From Gammaproteobacteria bacterium (GTDB taxonomy: Bacteria; Pseudomonadota; Gammaproteobacteria; Eutrophobiales; Eutrophobiaceae): DNA of 34,231 nt. Shown here piece after piece: positions 19,025-26,329 of the stretch. Made by a program: the position numbers and the translations under genes. Location: positions 1-34,231 of the forward strand of contig SCUJ01000002.1 in the NCBI GenBank assembly GCA_004297165.1, in the 5' to 3' direction. The notes under the pieces were generated by a model, which did not search any database, was not told where the DNA came from, and saw only the letters and a program-made list of their open reading frames with translations. Every line of letters starts with the position of its first letter. Within the stretch, counting starts at the first letter, position 1.

Positions 19025-19789
19025 TCAAGTAATTCCTGGCGTTCCTATCCCGAGGGCATCCCGCACTTCCTCCCAGAGATTCTCGAAGGACTTCACCGCG
19101 GTGCTGTCTACGCCGTAGCTGCCCAGCGGTGCGCGACGCACTCCCATCAATTCTATCTGACTTGCACTTGGTATGATGGTTCGCAGAAATCTTCCCTCAT
19201 CGTTGAACAGCATCTGGATGGTCTCGCGGTGGAGACGCTTGCGGTGATCGAGCATGGAAATGAACGGTAAAATCGCCGGCCCCTCGAATTCGGCATGTTT
19301 GAGATATTTCTCGAGTTGCTGAAGAGTGCGAACGGAAAGTGTTGTCGGTATGACCGGCACCAGCAAGGCATCGACGGCCAGAAAGATATTTTCCGCCGCG
19401 AGCGAGATCCCGGGGGCGCAATCCAGCAAAACCAAATCGTATTGCCCGGCAAACGGTTTGATAAGCTTGCGGAATTGCCTGACCGGTTTTTCGTGCTTGA
19501 TCAGCTTCGTGTCGAGGTAACGTAAGGAAGGATCGGCGGGGATCAGATCCAACCGCGGATAATCCGTCGCCTTGATGGCGGACTGCAACGGCCGTGTCCT
19601 GGCCAGGATATCCTTCAATCCGCCCTTGATTCGCGGCTGGACACGGAAATAGAAACTCGCCGCGCCTTGAGGATCGAGGTCCCATAACAATGTCCGATAG
19701 CCTTCCCGCGCCGCGAGATAGGCCAGATTGACGATGCAGGTGGTTTTACCAACGCCACCTTTGATGTTGTAACTGGCCAGCGCCTTCAT
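19025..19789 (-). CDS. Orphan ParA/MinD-family ATPase
   Basis: This 254-residue protein is a deviant Walker ATPase. The P-loop KGGVGKTT (from about residue 10) has the signature Lys. DLDPQGAAS and the Walker B-like LVLLDCAPGIS follow. Such ATPases bind nucleoid DNA as ATP dimers and position plasmids, chemoreceptor arrays or organelles. There is no N-terminal DNA-binding domain and no parB or parS nearby, so it is not a chromosome-partition pair. The ATG at 19789 is preferred to a TTG at 19795. It starts 24 bases after the CHAD-protein gene, so the two should be co-transcribed and may act together. Cargo is inferred, not shown. Confidence 0.9.
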   Translation of the reverse strand: MKALASYNIKGGVGKTTCIVNLAYLAAREGYRTLLWDLDPQGAASFYFRVQPRIKGGLKDILARTRPLQSAIKATDYPRLDLIPADPSLRYLDTKLIKHEKPVRQFRKLIKPFAGQYDLVLLDCAPGISLAAENIFLAVDALLVPVIPTTLSVRTLQQLEKYLKHAEFEGPAILPFISMLDHRKRLHRETIQMLFNDEGRFLRTIIPSASQIELMGVRRAPLGSYGVDSTAVKSFENLWEEVRDALGIGTPGIT

Positions 19790-19813
19790 GGGCAATTCAT
19801 CGGGATTACACTG

Positions 19814-21391
19814 TTAATGATGCGCGAGCGCGCGAAAATGCGCGCGGGTTTCTGTTGTGCTGAATTCATTGAAGGCCGCGGCGAAGTGTCTGCGCAACTC
19901 TGTATCCTCCGACCTGAGACTCGCGACGAGATGCCGCAGGACCGCGTGAGTCGTTGTCAGCGCGCCGGTTTGCGCCGGCAAGTTTCGCTGGATTTCCTCA
20001 AACTTGCGCCGCTGCACCTGGCAATCCTGCAGCAGACCCAGATTCTCTTGCAGGGATCGCAAACGATCGATCAACGGACGCATGGCGCGTTGGGGGTAGA
20101 GGTGATGGAAACTCTCGATCAGATAGCGCAGTTTTTTCACGGTCTTTCGCAACCGGTGCAACCTCGCCGAATCCCGGTAGCCATCAAGGCGCAACCCTTG
20201 CCGCCGCGCCTTGCGGTAGGCTTTCCAAATCCGTCGACCGGCGAACTCAATAATGGGTTGACGCGCATGCGCCAACTTTGTATGTGCCTCGTCCGGCCCA
20301 AGGAGCAACGCCTGCCAGTCATGACAAAGATCGCGGTAACGCCGGGAACCGAGGACTTTGTGAAGGCGCTGGTATTCATGATCGCGTTCCTTCCTGAGTT
20401 GTTCACGAATAGGCGCCATGGCTTCTTGCATGGCAAAAGGCAGGGTCGTGCGCGCCTGTTCGAGGGCGTGAAGATGCACATCCAGATCCCTGGCAACGCC
20501 ACTCGACCGTCCGAGCCAGGCGAAGGCCCGCTTGAAGCGCACCAGATGCCGCGCGTGAAAAACACCCCGCGATTGCCGCAGTAAGGCCCGGGTCCTGCGC
20601 ACCGCGACGCGGAAATCGTGCAGAAACTCGGTATCGATATCCTGCCGGATCCCCTCCTCCTGCAACTTTAATTTCTCGAAATGCCGGAGCTGGATCTGTT
20701 TGATCGCGGCCCCGCTATGGGTATGCGGCGCGGGTCTCTCGGCGGATGATCGCGGACCATTCGGGTCGATGCCGCAGAGTTCGAGATTATCGTACCAGGG
20801 ATCCCTCTCGACGGATCGCAAGCTTCCCAAGGCCAGCAAGGCCGCCCGCACGGATTCGGCCGCCTCGGTATAACCCCTCATCGGCAACAGTTTCACGCGC
20901 GTTGGCGACGGGCGAGGGATCGCCACCTCTCCTCCGCCCTGCCGCAGACAGACCAAATCCGCATCTTTTTCCAGTTGCAGCGTCAGTAGATTCTTGTCCT
21001 CGACATCGAGGAGTTGCAGGCTGCGTCTGCGACCGCGCAAGCGGACGAGCGGCAACAAGGCCCGCACCCCAATCACCTGCGCCAGCCGTTTCCTGACCGC
21101 CGGATTGTCGATTTCCGCCGCAAAGCGCGGCAATCCGGTCAGGGCGCAACTGTCCCTGGATGTAGTCTCATTGAGATTGCGCCATATCAAGCGCCACCCG
21201 TCATGCTCGTGTATCGCTTCAAGTACAGTTCCCGCGCTGTATAACCGCCAGTCGAAGGTATCCAGGAAGGTGGATTCTTCCACCACTTCCGCGTGGCCGC
21301 GCAGTTTCCACATTTCCCGCAATCCGAGCTTTAATGATCGATATGAAATCCTTCCGGAAAGCAAGAACCTGTTGGCGGCCGGTTTTTTCAT
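19814..21391 (-). CDS. CHAD-domain protein (probable polyphosphate-binding) with CYTH-like N-terminus
   Basis: This protein has 525 residues. Residues 229-510 form a CHAD domain: a helical fold rich in Arg and Lys with conserved His, seen as LHDFRVAVRRTRALLRQ (H258) and LHRLRKTVKKLRYLIESF (H412). CHAD domains bind polyphosphate and locate to polyphosphate granules. Residues 20-200 resemble a degenerate CYTH domain (TFLDTFDWRLYSAG), a common partner that hydrolyses or binds triphosphate chains. The ATG at 21391 is chosen because the open frame further upstream is antisense to the MFS gene. There is no signal peptide, so it is cytosolic. It leads an operon with the ParA-type ATPase. Confidence 0.9.
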   Translation of the reverse strand: MKKPAANRFLLSGRISYRSLKLGLREMWKLRGHAEVVEESTFLDTFDWRLYSAGTVLEAIHEHDGWRLIWRNLNETTSRDSCALTGLPRFAAEIDNPAVRKRLAQVIGVRALLPLVRLRGRRRSLQLLDVEDKNLLTLQLEKDADLVCLRQGGGEVAIPRPSPTRVKLLPMRGYTEAAESVRAALLALGSLRSVERDPWYDNLELCGIDPNGPRSSAERPAPHTHSGAAIKQIQLRHFEKLKLQEEGIRQDIDTEFLHDFRVAVRRTRALLRQSRGVFHARHLVRFKRAFAWLGRSSGVARDLDVHLHALEQARTTLPFAMQEAMAPIREQLRKERDHEYQRLHKVLGSRRYRDLCHDWQALLLGPDEAHTKLAHARQPIIEFAGRRIWKAYRKARRQGLRLDGYRDSARLHRLRKTVKKLRYLIESFHHLYPQRAMRPLIDRLRSLQENLGLLQDCQVQRRKFEEIQRNLPAQTGALTTTHAVLRHLVASLRSEDTELRRHFAAAFNEFSTTETRAHFRALAHH

Positions 21392-21454
21392 TGTTATTGC
21401 CGATGCGGTAATCCCGTCTTCTTTGTTACCATGTTCCGGATACGAGGGGGGAGC

Positions 21455-22810
21455 ATGAATAATAACACAACCGCCTATCCCGACCCGGCGTACGCCTGGT
21501 ATGTGGTCGCCATCCTGTTTCTCGCTTACACGGTTTCCTACATCGATCGGCAGATCATGTCTCTGCTTATCGAGCCCATCAAACAGGATCTGGCGATTAC
21601 CGATACGCAAGTGAGCCTGCTGCAAGGCTTCGCCTTCACCATCTTCTACACCGTCGCGGGGATCCCGCTCGGACGGATGGCGGACCGGAAAAACCGCCGG
21701 GCGATCATCGCTGCCGGCATTCTGGTGTGGAGCTTCATGACCGCCGCCTGCGGACTGGCCAGAAACTTTGCCCTGCTCTTTCTGGCGCGTATTGGAGTTG
21801 GCGTAGGCGAGGCCTGTCTTTCCCCCGCGGCCTATTCCTTGATTGCGGATTACTTCCCGAAGGATAAGCGCGCCATGCCAATCAGCCTCTACTCCATGGG
21901 GATCTTCTTCGGCGCCGGCCTGTCCTTCATCATCAGCGGTTACGTCATCCAGGAGGTGACCGCGGCGCGCGAGATTGCGTTGCCCATGATCGGCGTGGTC
22001 AGGCCCTGGCAACTCACGTTCTTCCTCGTCGGTCTCCCTGGATTGCTGATCGTGGCCCTGATGTCCACTGTACGCGAACCCGTGCGTCGCGATCTCCTGG
22101 CCATCGGCGCAAACAAGGATCACGTCAGCCTGTCGGCGGCCGGCCGTTTCCTGATCGCGCATGCACGGGCCTATGGCGCAGCTTTTCTCGGGTACTCCTT
22201 CGAGGCGACGATCTCTTATGGCTTTTTTGCCTGGGTCCCCAGTATGTTTGTACGGAGCTTCGGCTGGGAAGTAAGCCGTATTGGCTACTACTTCGGCCTG
22301 ATCGTCGGCATCCTCGGCACCGCGGGGATCCTCCTCGGGGGTATCCTGGCGGATCGGGCCCTCCACCGGGGCGTGCAGGACGCGCATATGCGCGTCGCCA
22401 TGTATGGAGCGGGTTTCATACTTGTTTTCGGCGTCGCCGCTATGTGCATGCCAACCCCGGCGCTGGTCCTGCTGATGCTCTGTCCGACGGCCGTGAGTCT
22501 GGGCATCCCCGTCGGGCTCGCCCCCGCCGCGGTAAATTACATCACCCCGAACCAGTTGCGGGGACAAGTAATAGCGGTATACATCTTTTTTGCTGCCCTG
22601 ATCGGAATGACCTGCGGACCGACCGTCGTCGCCCTGTTCACGGATTATGTCTACCGTGATCCCCTCGCCCTGCGCTGGTCCCTGGCTTCCTTCACCCTGC
22701 TTTTCGCGGTGTTATCGATTATCGCCTTCGCCCTTGGTCTGCGATCATTTCGAGAGAGCGCAGTTGCCCTCCTTGCCGGGAGCAGCGGTGGCGGTCCGCC
22801 GGATTCTTGA
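21455..22810 (+). CDS. MFS transporter, Spinster-like family
   Basis: This 451-residue inner-membrane protein has 12 predicted helices. The first is AWYVVAILFLAYTVSYIDRQ, typical of Spinster-like MFS proteins, and the loop 2-3 motif is GRMADRKNRRAI. The family moves small organic molecules or lipids by proton coupling; the substrate here is unknown. The ATG at 21455 has an AGGGGGGAG SD, so the upstream start at 21431 is rejected. It is divergent from the CHAD gene across 63 bases, which must hold both promoters. It lies 264 bases before the TonB-dependent receptor gene, so the two may serve uptake of one substrate. Confidence 0.9.
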   Translation: MNNNTTAYPDPAYAWYVVAILFLAYTVSYIDRQIMSLLIEPIKQDLAITDTQVSLLQGFAFTIFYTVAGIPLGRMADRKNRRAIIAAGILVWSFMTAACGLARNFALLFLARIGVGVGEACLSPAAYSLIADYFPKDKRAMPISLYSMGIFFGAGLSFIISGYVIQEVTAAREIALPMIGVVRPWQLTFFLVGLPGLLIVALMSTVREPVRRDLLAIGANKDHVSLSAAGRFLIAHARAYGAAFLGYSFEATISYGFFAWVPSMFVRSFGWEVSRIGYYFGLIVGILGTAGILLGGILADRALHRGVQDAHMRVAMYGAGFILVFGVAAMCMPTPALVLLMLCPTAVSLGIPVGLAPAAVNYITPNQLRGQVIAVYIFFAALIGMTCGPTVVALFTDYVYRDPLALRWSLASFTLLFAVLSIIAFALGLRSFRESAVALLAGSSGGGPPDS

Positions 22811-23074: not shown

Positions 23075-26000
23075 ATGTACGCACCTTGCCGCAGTCGCAG
23101 GCTCACTCTCACTCTCACTGCTGTCCTGACCGCAGCCCTTGGCGTAATTCCACAGGCATCCGCCCAGGAGGACGAGGCCCTGGAAGAAGTCACGGTCACA
23201 GGCACGCGCATCGTCCGGCGCGATTTCACCTCGCAAAGTCCGATCGTGACGGTCGATACTGAATCCTTCGAAAACCGTACCAGCATCGGGATTGAGGCCA
23301 CTCTCAACCAGATGCCGCAGTTCAATGTGGCCGGATCGCAGGCGCAGAACAGTTCGGCGGCATCGCCGTTCCCGGCCGCCGATCAGGCGCCTGGCGCGGC
23401 GACTCTCAATCTGCGCGGCCTCGGTTTGAATCGCAATCTTATCCTGGTGGATGGCCGACGCGTGCAGCCAGTCAACCTCCAACTGGTGGTCGACCTTAAC
23501 ACCATCCCTTCTTCGGCCATACAGCGGGTTGAAGTCATCACCGGCGGCGCCGCGGCTGTGTACGGGGCCGACGCGATTGCCGGAGTCACCAACTTCATCA
23601 TAAAAAAGGACTTTGAAGGCGCGGAGTTCGGCGGCCAGTACGGCGTCAGCCAGGAAGGCGACGGCGCGGAAAAGCAGTTCAGCGGCCTCATTGGCGCCAA
23701 TTTCGCCGACGGCCGGGGCAACGTCATGCTGGGCGCAAACTACAGCGACCGGGAGATTATAATGGGGAGAGACCGTGACTGGGTCGTCGATGGCTGGCTT
23801 GACCCTGGTACGCAGGCTGGAGGGATTGGTAGCTCCAACCTTTCGCAATACACCGCATCGCGTGCCTCATTCTGCAGCGTCTCAAATTGCGGTCAGCCTA
23901 CGACGCCGAATGCCCCGACACTCTATTCCTTCCCCGCTGCGGCCAACTATATCATTGATCAGAACGGCAACGTCTTTAACGCTTCGGACCCGTTAAACGC
24001 CACCCGTCCCTATACCGGGCCGCTGGGCATGGATTCCGGTTTCAAGATCAATCCGGATGGAACTCTGGGTTATTTTGACCCGGCGCACACCTATTTACAG
24101 ATCCCGCTCGATCGTTATTCAGTCTTTGGCAGCGCCAGTTTCGCACTGACGGAACACATCAACATCTTCACGGATATCCGCTATGCGGAGACCTTCGCCA
24201 AGGCCTCGGGTTTCGTCTCCGGCTTGTTCAACGTCTGGTCGCCTTCTGTACCCTACGACTCCGCGAACGACGATCCAGATTCGCCGACCTTCGGACAAGG
24301 CGCGAATGATCACCCGGTACCTCGCGCACTGGCGGACCTGCTGAATTCACGCCCGACCCCGAATGCGCCCTGGACCTACGTCGGAGGCCTGGACTACATA
24401 CCCAATTTCACGACCGAGACGACCAGCAATGTCTATCAGGTCATCGGCGGCTTCAACGGCGATTTTAGCTTCATGGACCGGGAATTAACTTGGGAAGTCT
24501 ATGCCTCGCATGGCAAATCCACCGTGAATGCCCGTCAACCCGAGGGTTTCCCCTACCTGCCCCGGATCCAGAACGTGTTCAATGCCAATCAGTACGGCGA
24601 GAACTTCGATATATCCTCCCTGCCCGGCTTCTTCCCGTTGGCAGTGACTGGCCATTGCACATCGGGCCTGCCTATATTCAACGCTAATGGCAGCGTCGAT
24701 GATACGCCATCCGTCTCACAAGACTGCGCCGACTACATCGTTCTGCGGATGACCAACGTCACCACCCTGACCCAGGAGGTCATCGAGGGCAACATCCAGG
24801 GCAGCTTGTATGATCTGCCGGCCGGTGAGTTGCAGTTCGCCCTGGGGGCCGACTACCGGAGCGAGAACGCCCAGTTTGATCCGGATACAGCGTTCAACGC
24901 CAACCAGAACTTCCCGAATGTGATCCAGAACATCATCCTGCCGGTCTCCGTTGACGGATCCACGGATGTCAAGGAAGTCTACGCCGAGCTGGCGATACCC
25001 GTAGTCAAGGATTTGCCGTACATCAAATCGTTCGAGGTCGACCCCGGCGTGCGCTGGTCGGACTACGATACCACGGGAGGTTCCGAGACCTACAAGGTCC
25101 TCGGCGACCTGGCTGTGAACGACTGGGTTCGCTTCCGTGGCGGTTATCAGGTTGCCACCCGCTCGCCAAACGTGGCCGAGCTGTTTACCCCTAAGGGCGG
25201 GAGCCAGATTCAGGGGACCGGCGGGACAACAACCCCCGACTCGTGTGGGAACATCCCTGGTATCACGCCCTCGTGGGGTAACATCCCGGGCAATCCCAAC
25301 CGGGAGAATGTTCAGATCCTCTGCGACTACCTTATGGAGCGTGATGGCGCCCCGGGCGATGTCGCGGGTGATTTCTTTGATCCAGCCTTGCCCAGCGGCA
25401 CGCCGAACAGTGCCGACGATTACAGGTACAATGTCTTCGGCGCCACCTTTGCGTTCCCGTTCACCATTGCGGTGACCGAGGGTAATCCTGGCCTTGAAAC
25501 AGAGACAGCGGAAACCTTTACCGCAGGACTGATCCTCAATTCGCCAATAGATCATCCGTTGCTGGAACGGTTCACCTTGTCCGCGGACTACTACATAATC
25601 GATGTTGTAAACGCGATCGGCACACCGAATCATAACAGCGTCTATCAGCAATGCCTGGACGCTCAATACAACAGCTTGGTTGGCAGCGCGCCCGGCTCGG
25701 TGTCCGGCCCAGCGATGGCCGCCAATAATCCCTTCTGCGCCCTGATCGAACGCGAATGGACACCAGGCCTCGGCTGGGGTGCGGCACGCCGGTTCAAAGC
25801 CCGCACCATCAACCAGGGCGGCATAGAGACCCAGGGTATCGACATGCAACTGGATTGGGGTGCCGAACTCGCGGACTTGGGCATCGAGTTCATCCCCGGT
25901 TCGTTTAGCGTGAACGTTTTGGCGAGTTACCTCGACCTGTATGCTGAATCGCCGTTTCCGGGCGCCTCCTTCGTTGACTACACCGGGACATCGTTCAATT

Positions 26001-26329
26001 CCTCGTTCGATTACAGGTTATTGTCGACCTTTGGCTGGACCAGCGGGTCGTATTCCGTTGGTCTGCGCTGGCAGCATCTGCCCTCGGTGGATACACCGCC
26101 CGGCAGCGCAGCCACCGCACTCGGCATCGAGTCGCACGACCAAGTCGATCTGTTCGGACGCTGGTCATTCCTCGAAAATTATGAGTTGAGATTCGGGATT
26201 GACAACCTGCTCAATGCGGATCCCGAGATCGTGGGTGCGAATGCGACCAACAATGCCTTGGGTTCCACGAACAGTAATTACGATCAGATCGGCCGTCGCT
26301 TCTTCGTCGGCCTGACCGCCAGTTATTGA
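23075..26329 (+). CDS. TonB-dependent outer-membrane receptor
   Basis: This 1084-residue protein has a signal peptide (cleavage near SAQ, residue 31), a TonB-box-like EEVTVTGTR at about 36-44, and a plug domain to about residue 200 with LRGLGLNRNLILVDGRRV and VEVITGGAAAVYGADAIAGVTNFIIK. A long 22-strand barrel follows and ends in a C-terminal aromatic (GLTASY), which is required for outer-membrane insertion. It takes up a scarce ligand using energy from TonB-ExbBD. The plug resembles the large receptors abundant in Xanthomonadales-like and Sphingomonas-like bacteria, which import diverse compounds and not only siderophores. No Fur box is seen upstream, so an iron ligand should not be assumed. 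An excellent SD supports the start. Confidence 0.95.
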   Translation: MYAPCRSRRLTLTLTAVLTAALGVIPQASAQEDEALEEVTVTGTRIVRRDFTSQSPIVTVDTESFENRTSIGIEATLNQMPQFNVAGSQAQNSSAASPFPAADQAPGAATLNLRGLGLNRNLILVDGRRVQPVNLQLVVDLNTIPSSAIQRVEVITGGAAAVYGADAIAGVTNFIIKKDFEGAEFGGQYGVSQEGDGAEKQFSGLIGANFADGRGNVMLGANYSDREIIMGRDRDWVVDGWLDPGTQAGGIGSSNLSQYTASRASFCSVSNCGQPTTPNAPTLYSFPAAANYIIDQNGNVFNASDPLNATRPYTGPLGMDSGFKINPDGTLGYFDPAHTYLQIPLDRYSVFGSASFALTEHINIFTDIRYAETFAKASGFVSGLFNVWSPSVPYDSANDDPDSPTFGQGANDHPVPRALADLLNSRPTPNAPWTYVGGLDYIPNFTTETTSNVYQVIGGFNGDFSFMDRELTWEVYASHGKSTVNARQPEGFPYLPRIQNVFNANQYGENFDISSLPGFFPLAVTGHCTSGLPIFNANGSVDDTPSVSQDCADYIVLRMTNVTTLTQEVIEGNIQGSLYDLPAGELQFALGADYRSENAQFDPDTAFNANQNFPNVIQNIILPVSVDGSTDVKEVYAELAIPVVKDLPYIKSFEVDPGVRWSDYDTTGGSETYKVLGDLAVNDWVRFRGGYQVATRSPNVAELFTPKGGSQIQGTGGTTTPDSCGNIPGITPSWGNIPGNPNRENVQILCDYLMERDGAPGDVAGDFFDPALPSGTPNSADDYRYNVFGATFAFPFTIAVTEGNPGLETETAETFTAGLILNSPIDHPLLERFTLSADYYIIDVVNAIGTPNHNSVYQQCLDAQYNSLVGSAPGSVSGPAMAANNPFCALIEREWTPGLGWGAARRFKARTINQGGIETQGIDMQLDWGAELADLGIEFIPGSFSVNVLASYLDLYAESPFPGASFVDYTGTSFNSSFDYRLLSTFGWTSGSYSVGLRWQHLPSVDTPPGSAATALGIESHDQVDLFGRWSFLENYELRFGIDNLLNADPEIVGANATNNALGSTNSNYDQIGRRFFVGLTASY

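Follow-up and report, generated by a model that had tools for sequence, protein, structure and literature searches.

The McdA-McdB system, as outlined in PMC13052382 and PMC10241942, spaces carboxysomes over the nucleoid and offers a functional analogy for the gene pair described here, since in both cases the gene of a ParA-type ATPase lies beside that of a presumed cargo adaptor and no parB accompanies them. The two differ in their cargo, which would be polyphosphate in our case, and in the adaptor, here a CHAD protein with a TTM-like domain. For polyphosphate granules, the parts of a 2025 review used here (PMC13052382) list only AlgP and call ATP dependence unknown. AlgP of Pseudomonas aeruginosa serves the even spacing of these granules (according to PMC9239181), as we propose for our pair, but it is a histone H1-like DNA-binding protein that is neither an ATPase nor a CHAD protein.

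The two kinds of genes have been seen together before: A folD-ppk-parA-CHAD neighborhood of Acidithiobacillus is already in print in connection with copper (PMC10892726) and with cAMP (PMC6416229). By its published description it has parA and CHAD genes side by side as in our locus, together with ppk, but the active-site residues of its CYTH domain are said to be conserved, unlike those of the N-terminal domain described below. Among the matches listed for the open literature (with subscription papers and bioRxiv outside the scope of the search), no paper proposed a ParA for polyphosphate granules.

The CHAD-ParA gene pair and its two proteins

The window, i.e., the whole stretch of 34,231 nucleotides that was analyzed, contains the two genes on one strand (Table 1). 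An initial annotation had described them as lying 24 bases apart without parB or parS, and this description proved correct: a search allowing up to 3 mismatches to the parS consensus found no parS-like site in the window, no parB adjoins the pair, and ParB_N matches in this genome (G000) are confined to other contigs. A second parA with an adjoining parB is found on contig G000:C2. A remnant of a plasmid partition system is ruled out by the lack of parB and parS at the pair and by the parA-parB pair elsewhere in the genome. The same genome has a single CHAD match and one ppk, the latter on G000:C5. Divergently from the CHAD gene run a putative MFS transporter gene (21431-22810, +) and a putative TonB-dependent receptor gene (23075-26329, +), both recognized by eye. 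The nearest named record among the matches listed in a contig scan (at least 4 relatives) is Gammaproteobacteria bacterium RIFCSPLOWO2_02_FULL_56_15 with a ParA of 78% identity.

Table 1. Features of the CHAD-ParA locus (positions refer to the window).
Feature	Position	Strand	Basis
CHAD protein gene, 525 aa, first of pair	19814..21391	-	ORF and translation; Pfam CHAD; start matches homologues
ParA-type ATPase gene, 254 aa, second of pair	19025..19789	-	ORF, Pfam, ParA/Soj fold, family clade
Spacer from CHAD stop codon to ParA ATG, 24 bases	19790..19813	-	Sequence
N-terminal TTM/CYTH-like domain (predicted), approximately residues 1-205, without ExExK	20777..21391	-	AlphaFold, Foldseek, motif test
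CHAD domain, residues 236-462, polyphosphate-ligand equivalents H258, R261, R265	20006..20686	-	Pfam; residues matched by spacing

Neither protein passes NCBIfam cut-offs, and Pfam recognizes both, the CHAD domain as PF05235 (E 1.1e-51) and the ATPase as AAA_31 (E 4.6e-33) with the deviant Walker A motif KGGVGKT. The ParA model (pLDDT 76) finds its best PDB match in the ParA/Soj structure 8ray (TM 0.82), and profile scores are likewise highest for ParA/Soj (90-130 bits), ahead of McdA (52-56 bits) and BcsQ (24 bits). Its family forms one clade of 95 rows (support 100/100, bootstrap not settled) apart from 6 ordinary ParAs, and the signature lysine K10, the Walker A lysine K15, and the aspartate D39 of the DxDPQ motif are invariant in all 101 aligned rows. 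The protein thus shares fold and ATPase motifs with Soj/ParA of ParABS systems but differs from it in lacking an adjoining parB and a parS in the window, in its clade, in a replaced arginine of Soj's IPRN motif, and at position 219. Here, the arginine that marks the family is found in 47/52 CHAD-linked and 33/39 other family rows, glutamine in 3 rows linked to a short CHAD (see below), and glycine in 6/6 ordinary ParAs. Considered as basic residues for putative nucleoid binding, R183 is, like R219, present in 47 of the 52 CHAD-linked rows, while the IPRN arginine of Soj is the one replaced.

The model of the CHAD protein (pLDDT 87) combines a beta-rich N-terminal domain with helical bundles. 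Its CHAD half matches the phosin CtCHAD of C. tepidum in complex with polyphosphate (6qva; TM by target 0.90, 30% identity; Foldseek), in which a joint change of His253, Arg256, and Arg260 lowers polyphosphate binding (PMC6537752). Matched by spacing, these residues correspond to H258, R261, and R265, which are kept in 51, 52, and 48 of 53 CHAD rows. From fold and residues, we strongly expect the domain to bind polyphosphate and so to coat the granule. What sets the protein apart from phosins is its cotranscription with ParA, as judged by spacing, and the fusion to a TTM-like domain without catalytic motif.

This N-terminal half is a weak fold match to TTM/CYTH proteins (Foldseek). The catalytic motif of TTM proteins is ExExK, which a motif test did not find in the N-terminal part of the window's protein, and Pfam CYTH gives no match there up to E 5. 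Canonical CYTH-CHAD proteins of the YgiF type have the same domain order and folds. Near the N-terminus, ExExK stands in 11/20 CHADs without ParA, whereas ParA-linked CHADs do not have it at that place: the N-terminal part is devoid of the motif in 45/50 linked CHADs (five of these, L070, L118, L142, L145, and L149, have little or no such part to read), and in the other 5 the motif lies elsewhere. Pfam CYTH likewise matches the canonical protein L205 (E 2.4e-30), one of these 11, and none of 6 linked CHADs. Both kinds coexist in genomes G147 and G263, where the ExExK protein adjoins ppk1 and ppk2 while the linked CHAD goes with ParA.

ParA partners commonly feature a positively charged, disordered N-terminus (among the general features given in PMC10241942), and this hallmark is not consistently found in the CHAD protein. 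Across 14 CHAD rows, the net charge over residues 1-25 ranges from -3 to +7, and the first strand of the CHAD model begins at residue 8.

Conservation of the pair and its phosphate context

We searched for ParA and CHAD separately in 58 genomes, the window's own and 57 relatives. ParA scores separated clearly, with 10 relatives scoring at least 190 bits and the next match 93, and 10/10 relatives with this ParA carry a CHAD gene immediately upstream of it in the same orientation. CHAD matches without this ParA occurred in 18 other genomes of the set, one of them a broken fragment. A 13-row ParA profile was then applied to an even class-wide sample (369 genomes, the window's own among them) and identified family ParAs in 56 of them at 57 loci (at least 232 bits, except for one split gene at 186; next match 150). 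All 57 loci were read with flanks to the contig limits, and 6 ParA loci with lower scores served for comparison. Of the 57, 42 have a CHAD gene immediately upstream in the same orientation, 39 times of the window's CHAD lineage and 3 times of a short, unrelated type (L147, L152, and L163), while at one further locus (L157) ppk1 ends around 10 bases before parA. Neither CHAD nor ppk is directly upstream at the remaining 14 loci (L139, L150, L156, L158-L162, and L164-L169). The adjacency is therefore not confined to this genome, as it would have been under one of the refuting outcomes named in the initial annotation, and with 10/10 relatives and 42/57 class loci a chance neighborhood is ruled out.

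The two genes are also closely packed. In the linked pairs whose start could be placed (49), an overlap of 4 bp occurs in 28 and one of 1 bp in 4, so that translational coupling of CHAD and ParA genes is likely; the 24-base gap of the window is on the wide side among linked pairs. No CHAD-ParA fusion was found among the class-sample loci examined.

By genome, CHAD accompanies ParA in 49/56 genomes of the class sample as compared to 71/313 genomes without ParA, and PPK in 51/56 as compared to 164/313, with kinship ignored in both comparisons. Before counting, six CHAD matches had been discarded as weak or broken, one of which came from a genome with ParA, and an intact CHAD is missing from 7/56 genomes with a family ParA. 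Two genomes (G106 and G235) have a long-branched family ParA but lack both CHAD and PPK; at the two loci (L168 1377-3287, +; L169 1389-3317, +), the preceding gene looks DnaJ-like by eye.

Since raw ORF clusters were noisy from antisense frames, neighboring genes were used only if checked with Pfam or readable by eye. Searches with PPK1, PPK2, SixA-like phosphatase, PstB, PhoU, PhoB, PhoR, and Na/Pi transporter queries found at least one phosphate or polyphosphate gene in 19/50 linked loci (stretch read, up to around 6 kb on each side; PPK1 8, PPK2 7, SixA-like 12, Na/Pi 2, PhoU 2, others 1), as compared to 0/14 CHAD-less family loci and 0/6 ordinary ParA loci (Fisher 7e-4). Pfam backs the assignments of PPK1, PPK2, PhoU, PhoR, and Na/Pi; SixA-like denotes a histidine-phosphatase match, while the names PstB and PhoB were given to an ABC ATPase and a response regulator, respectively, on the basis of place and sequence. 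One neighboring ORF, at L124, has no Pfam match. At L122, phoB-phoR-CHAD-parA-ppk lie on one strand and pstB and phoU on the other. No phosphate genes were found at the 3 short-CHAD loci or in the whole window. Phosphate neighbors follow CHAD, with or without ParA, because 8/20 CHAD loci without ParA also have them within around 3 kb.

Partner exchange and the wider ParA clade

In the CHAD tree, which has many long branches and a bootstrap that is not settled, 55 linked and 13 unlinked CHADs form one set (support 96/90), and all 11 ExExK proteins fall outside it (the duplicate L067 and the partial L118 and L142 were left out). The three short CHADs make up a very long separate branch, and, judging from this branching, either one CHAD partner replaced another on at least one occasion or CHAD became associated with ParA two times.

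Within the linked CHAD lineage, the N-terminal domain is present in 50/52 measured linked rows and in 6/13 unlinked ones (Fisher 7e-5, kinship ignored; 3 linked rows lie outside the measured set, and 4 Paracoccus matches are partial). L145 and L149 are ParA-linked CHADs without this domain, and at least 6 CHADs of the lineage keep it without ParA. Three relatives of the window's genome (L083 5702-6658, +; L084 2107-3051, +; L085 5330-6304, -) have a CHAD of this lineage with neither N-terminal domain nor ParA, as if both had been lost together. Because of this distribution and these three loci, the N-terminal domain is our candidate for the ParA-coupling part.

Beyond the class, the picture changes. 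In a sample of the phylum, 68/398 genomes have a family ParA, 58 of them outside the class, and CHAD lies beside ParA in only 5 of these 58 (G776, G525, G501, G540, and G703), as judged by coordinates for all 58 and with loci read for L177-L204. The link to CHAD is thus typical of a part of the ParA clade and not of the whole. A CHAD anywhere in the genome was found in 55/66 phylum-sample genomes examined.

On plasmids, the ParA has matches in 22 records at E 1e-20. Every Paracoccus record among these (6, of which 4 are P. marcusii) has a directly adjoining CHAD match, and in the four loci that were read (L225, L227, L233, and L234) the CHAD-ParA pair is followed by a CYTH-annotated gene in 4/4 and then a NUDIX gene in 3/4, with a small ORF before CHAD in 3/4; the one CYTH checked scored just below the Pfam cut-off (20.3 of 23.2 bits). 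Carriers of CHAD-ParA-CYTH plasmids include P. aestuarii DSM 19484 and P. marcusii, both of environmental origin. No CHAD was found in the fetched stretch for five other plasmid-borne family ParAs (203-311 bits) of Halomonas, Pontibacter (the upstream side of which lies outside the stretch), Marinobacter, Sphingomonas, and Novosphingobium. In Thiodictyon syntrophicum, in turn, a linked-type CHAD lies close to pstB and pstS, but no ParA accompanies it.

Family ParAs without adjacent CHAD keep other company. At three loci outside the class (L181 492-1169, -; L201 2470-3171, +; L204 2475-3170, +), a gene with an RnfH domain, assigned by Pfam for L201 and L204 and by eye for L181, is divergent from the family ParA. 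Its product has a long Lys/Ala-rich tail that recalls the histone H1-like AlgP, and TruA and cysteine synthase genes, read by eye, lie farther out. At L156 (5066-6898, +) and also at L158, L161, and L166, a CHAD-less family ParA is divergent from a long-chain acyl-CoA synthetase gene (matched by Pfam AMP-binding at L156), beyond which a thioesterase and a FadL-like gene were again read by eye; these ParAs perhaps serve another cargo. Plasmid pMAQU02 of Marinobacter nauticus (L230 673-5747) has a family ParA scoring 259 bits in the vicinity of phbB, a gene of PHB synthesis.

A proposed positioning system and its alternatives

A conserved and tightly coupled gene pair, with intact ATPase and polyphosphate-binding residues and in a phosphate context, probably encodes a ParA that spaces polyphosphate granules over the nucleoid and a CHAD protein that serves as granule adaptor. 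In this two-gene operon for a ParA/MinD-type positioning system, the C-terminal CHAD domain would bind polyphosphate and coat the granule, while ParA-ATP dimers, judging from their family and the intact ATPase residues, would bind the nucleoid irrespective of sequence. Most likely via its non-catalytic N-terminal domain, the CHAD protein would then contact ParA and trigger ATP hydrolysis, and the resulting ParA gradient would space granules along the nucleoid or share them between daughter cells. Translational coupling could keep CHAD protein and ParA at a fixed ratio.

The initial annotation had already cast the CHAD protein as adaptor and ParA as motor, and our analysis supports this idea in part: adjacency, phosphate context, and the swap of partners (short CHAD, ppk) speak for it, while the 5/58 adjacency outside the class and the 7/56 class genomes without intact CHAD speak against it, and the function itself is what we infer from these patterns. 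What weighs most heavily against it is the occurrence of the ParA clade without adjacent CHAD as well, together with the lack of a consistent N-terminal tail in the adaptor.

Several other roles would be compatible with parts of these data. The conserved pairing and the phosphate context would also suit a ParA that acts locally on polyphosphate metabolism as a regulator or assembly factor, much as BcsQ does for cellulose secretion, binding the CHAD protein and recruiting or switching kinases or phosphatases while granules stay unmoved; the CYTH and NUDIX genes after the pair in Paracoccus fit such a role, and the weaker matches of our ParA by fold and family include BcsQ. We nevertheless regard it as unlikely, given that the nearest solved proteins are ParA/Soj, that BcsQ reaches 24 as opposed to 130 bits, and that the N-terminal domain has no catalytic motif. 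With AlgP, a DNA-binding protein does affect granule spacing in P. aeruginosa (according to PMC9239181 and PMC13052382), and ParA might be, as has been proposed for AlgP, a passive or division-coupled tether that merely anchors granules to DNA without ATP-driven spacing; however, a mere tether would have no need for ATPase residues that are invariant in 101/101 rows, which makes this reading very improbable.

It is also quite improbable that the pair has another role altogether, be it in cAMP signaling, in copper tolerance as in Acidithiobacillus, or with another cargo of the ParA clade and CHAD as a bystander. The published contexts (cAMP in PMC6416229, copper in PMC10892726) point in this direction, as do the RnfH gene with its Lys/Ala-rich tail, the acyl-CoA synthetase, and phbB next to ParAs of the wider clade. 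However, the N-terminal domain does not have the motif that one would expect in a cyclase or triphosphatase, and PMC10892726 itself, in the part considered here, reports that metal-resistance genes are absent from that neighborhood.

Returning to granule positioning by ParA and CHAD protein, we tentatively consider a broader version that could be true but falls short of being probable: ATP-driven positioning of polyphosphate granules may be widespread, with a TTM/CYTH domain that lost catalysis and became the ParA-coupling half, and the ParA clade may serve storage bodies generally, drawing in some lineages on CHAD, PPK, or an unrelated CHAD as handles and, where it lies beside lipid or PHB genes, on other partners.

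How bacterial polyphosphate granules are spaced and inherited is the question that the pair bears on. A conserved ParA with a presumed polyphosphate-binding partner makes an active granule mechanism directly testable and gives a new reading to a gene neighborhood that was already known but otherwise explained. If true, polyphosphate granules would be a new cargo for the ParA/MinD family.
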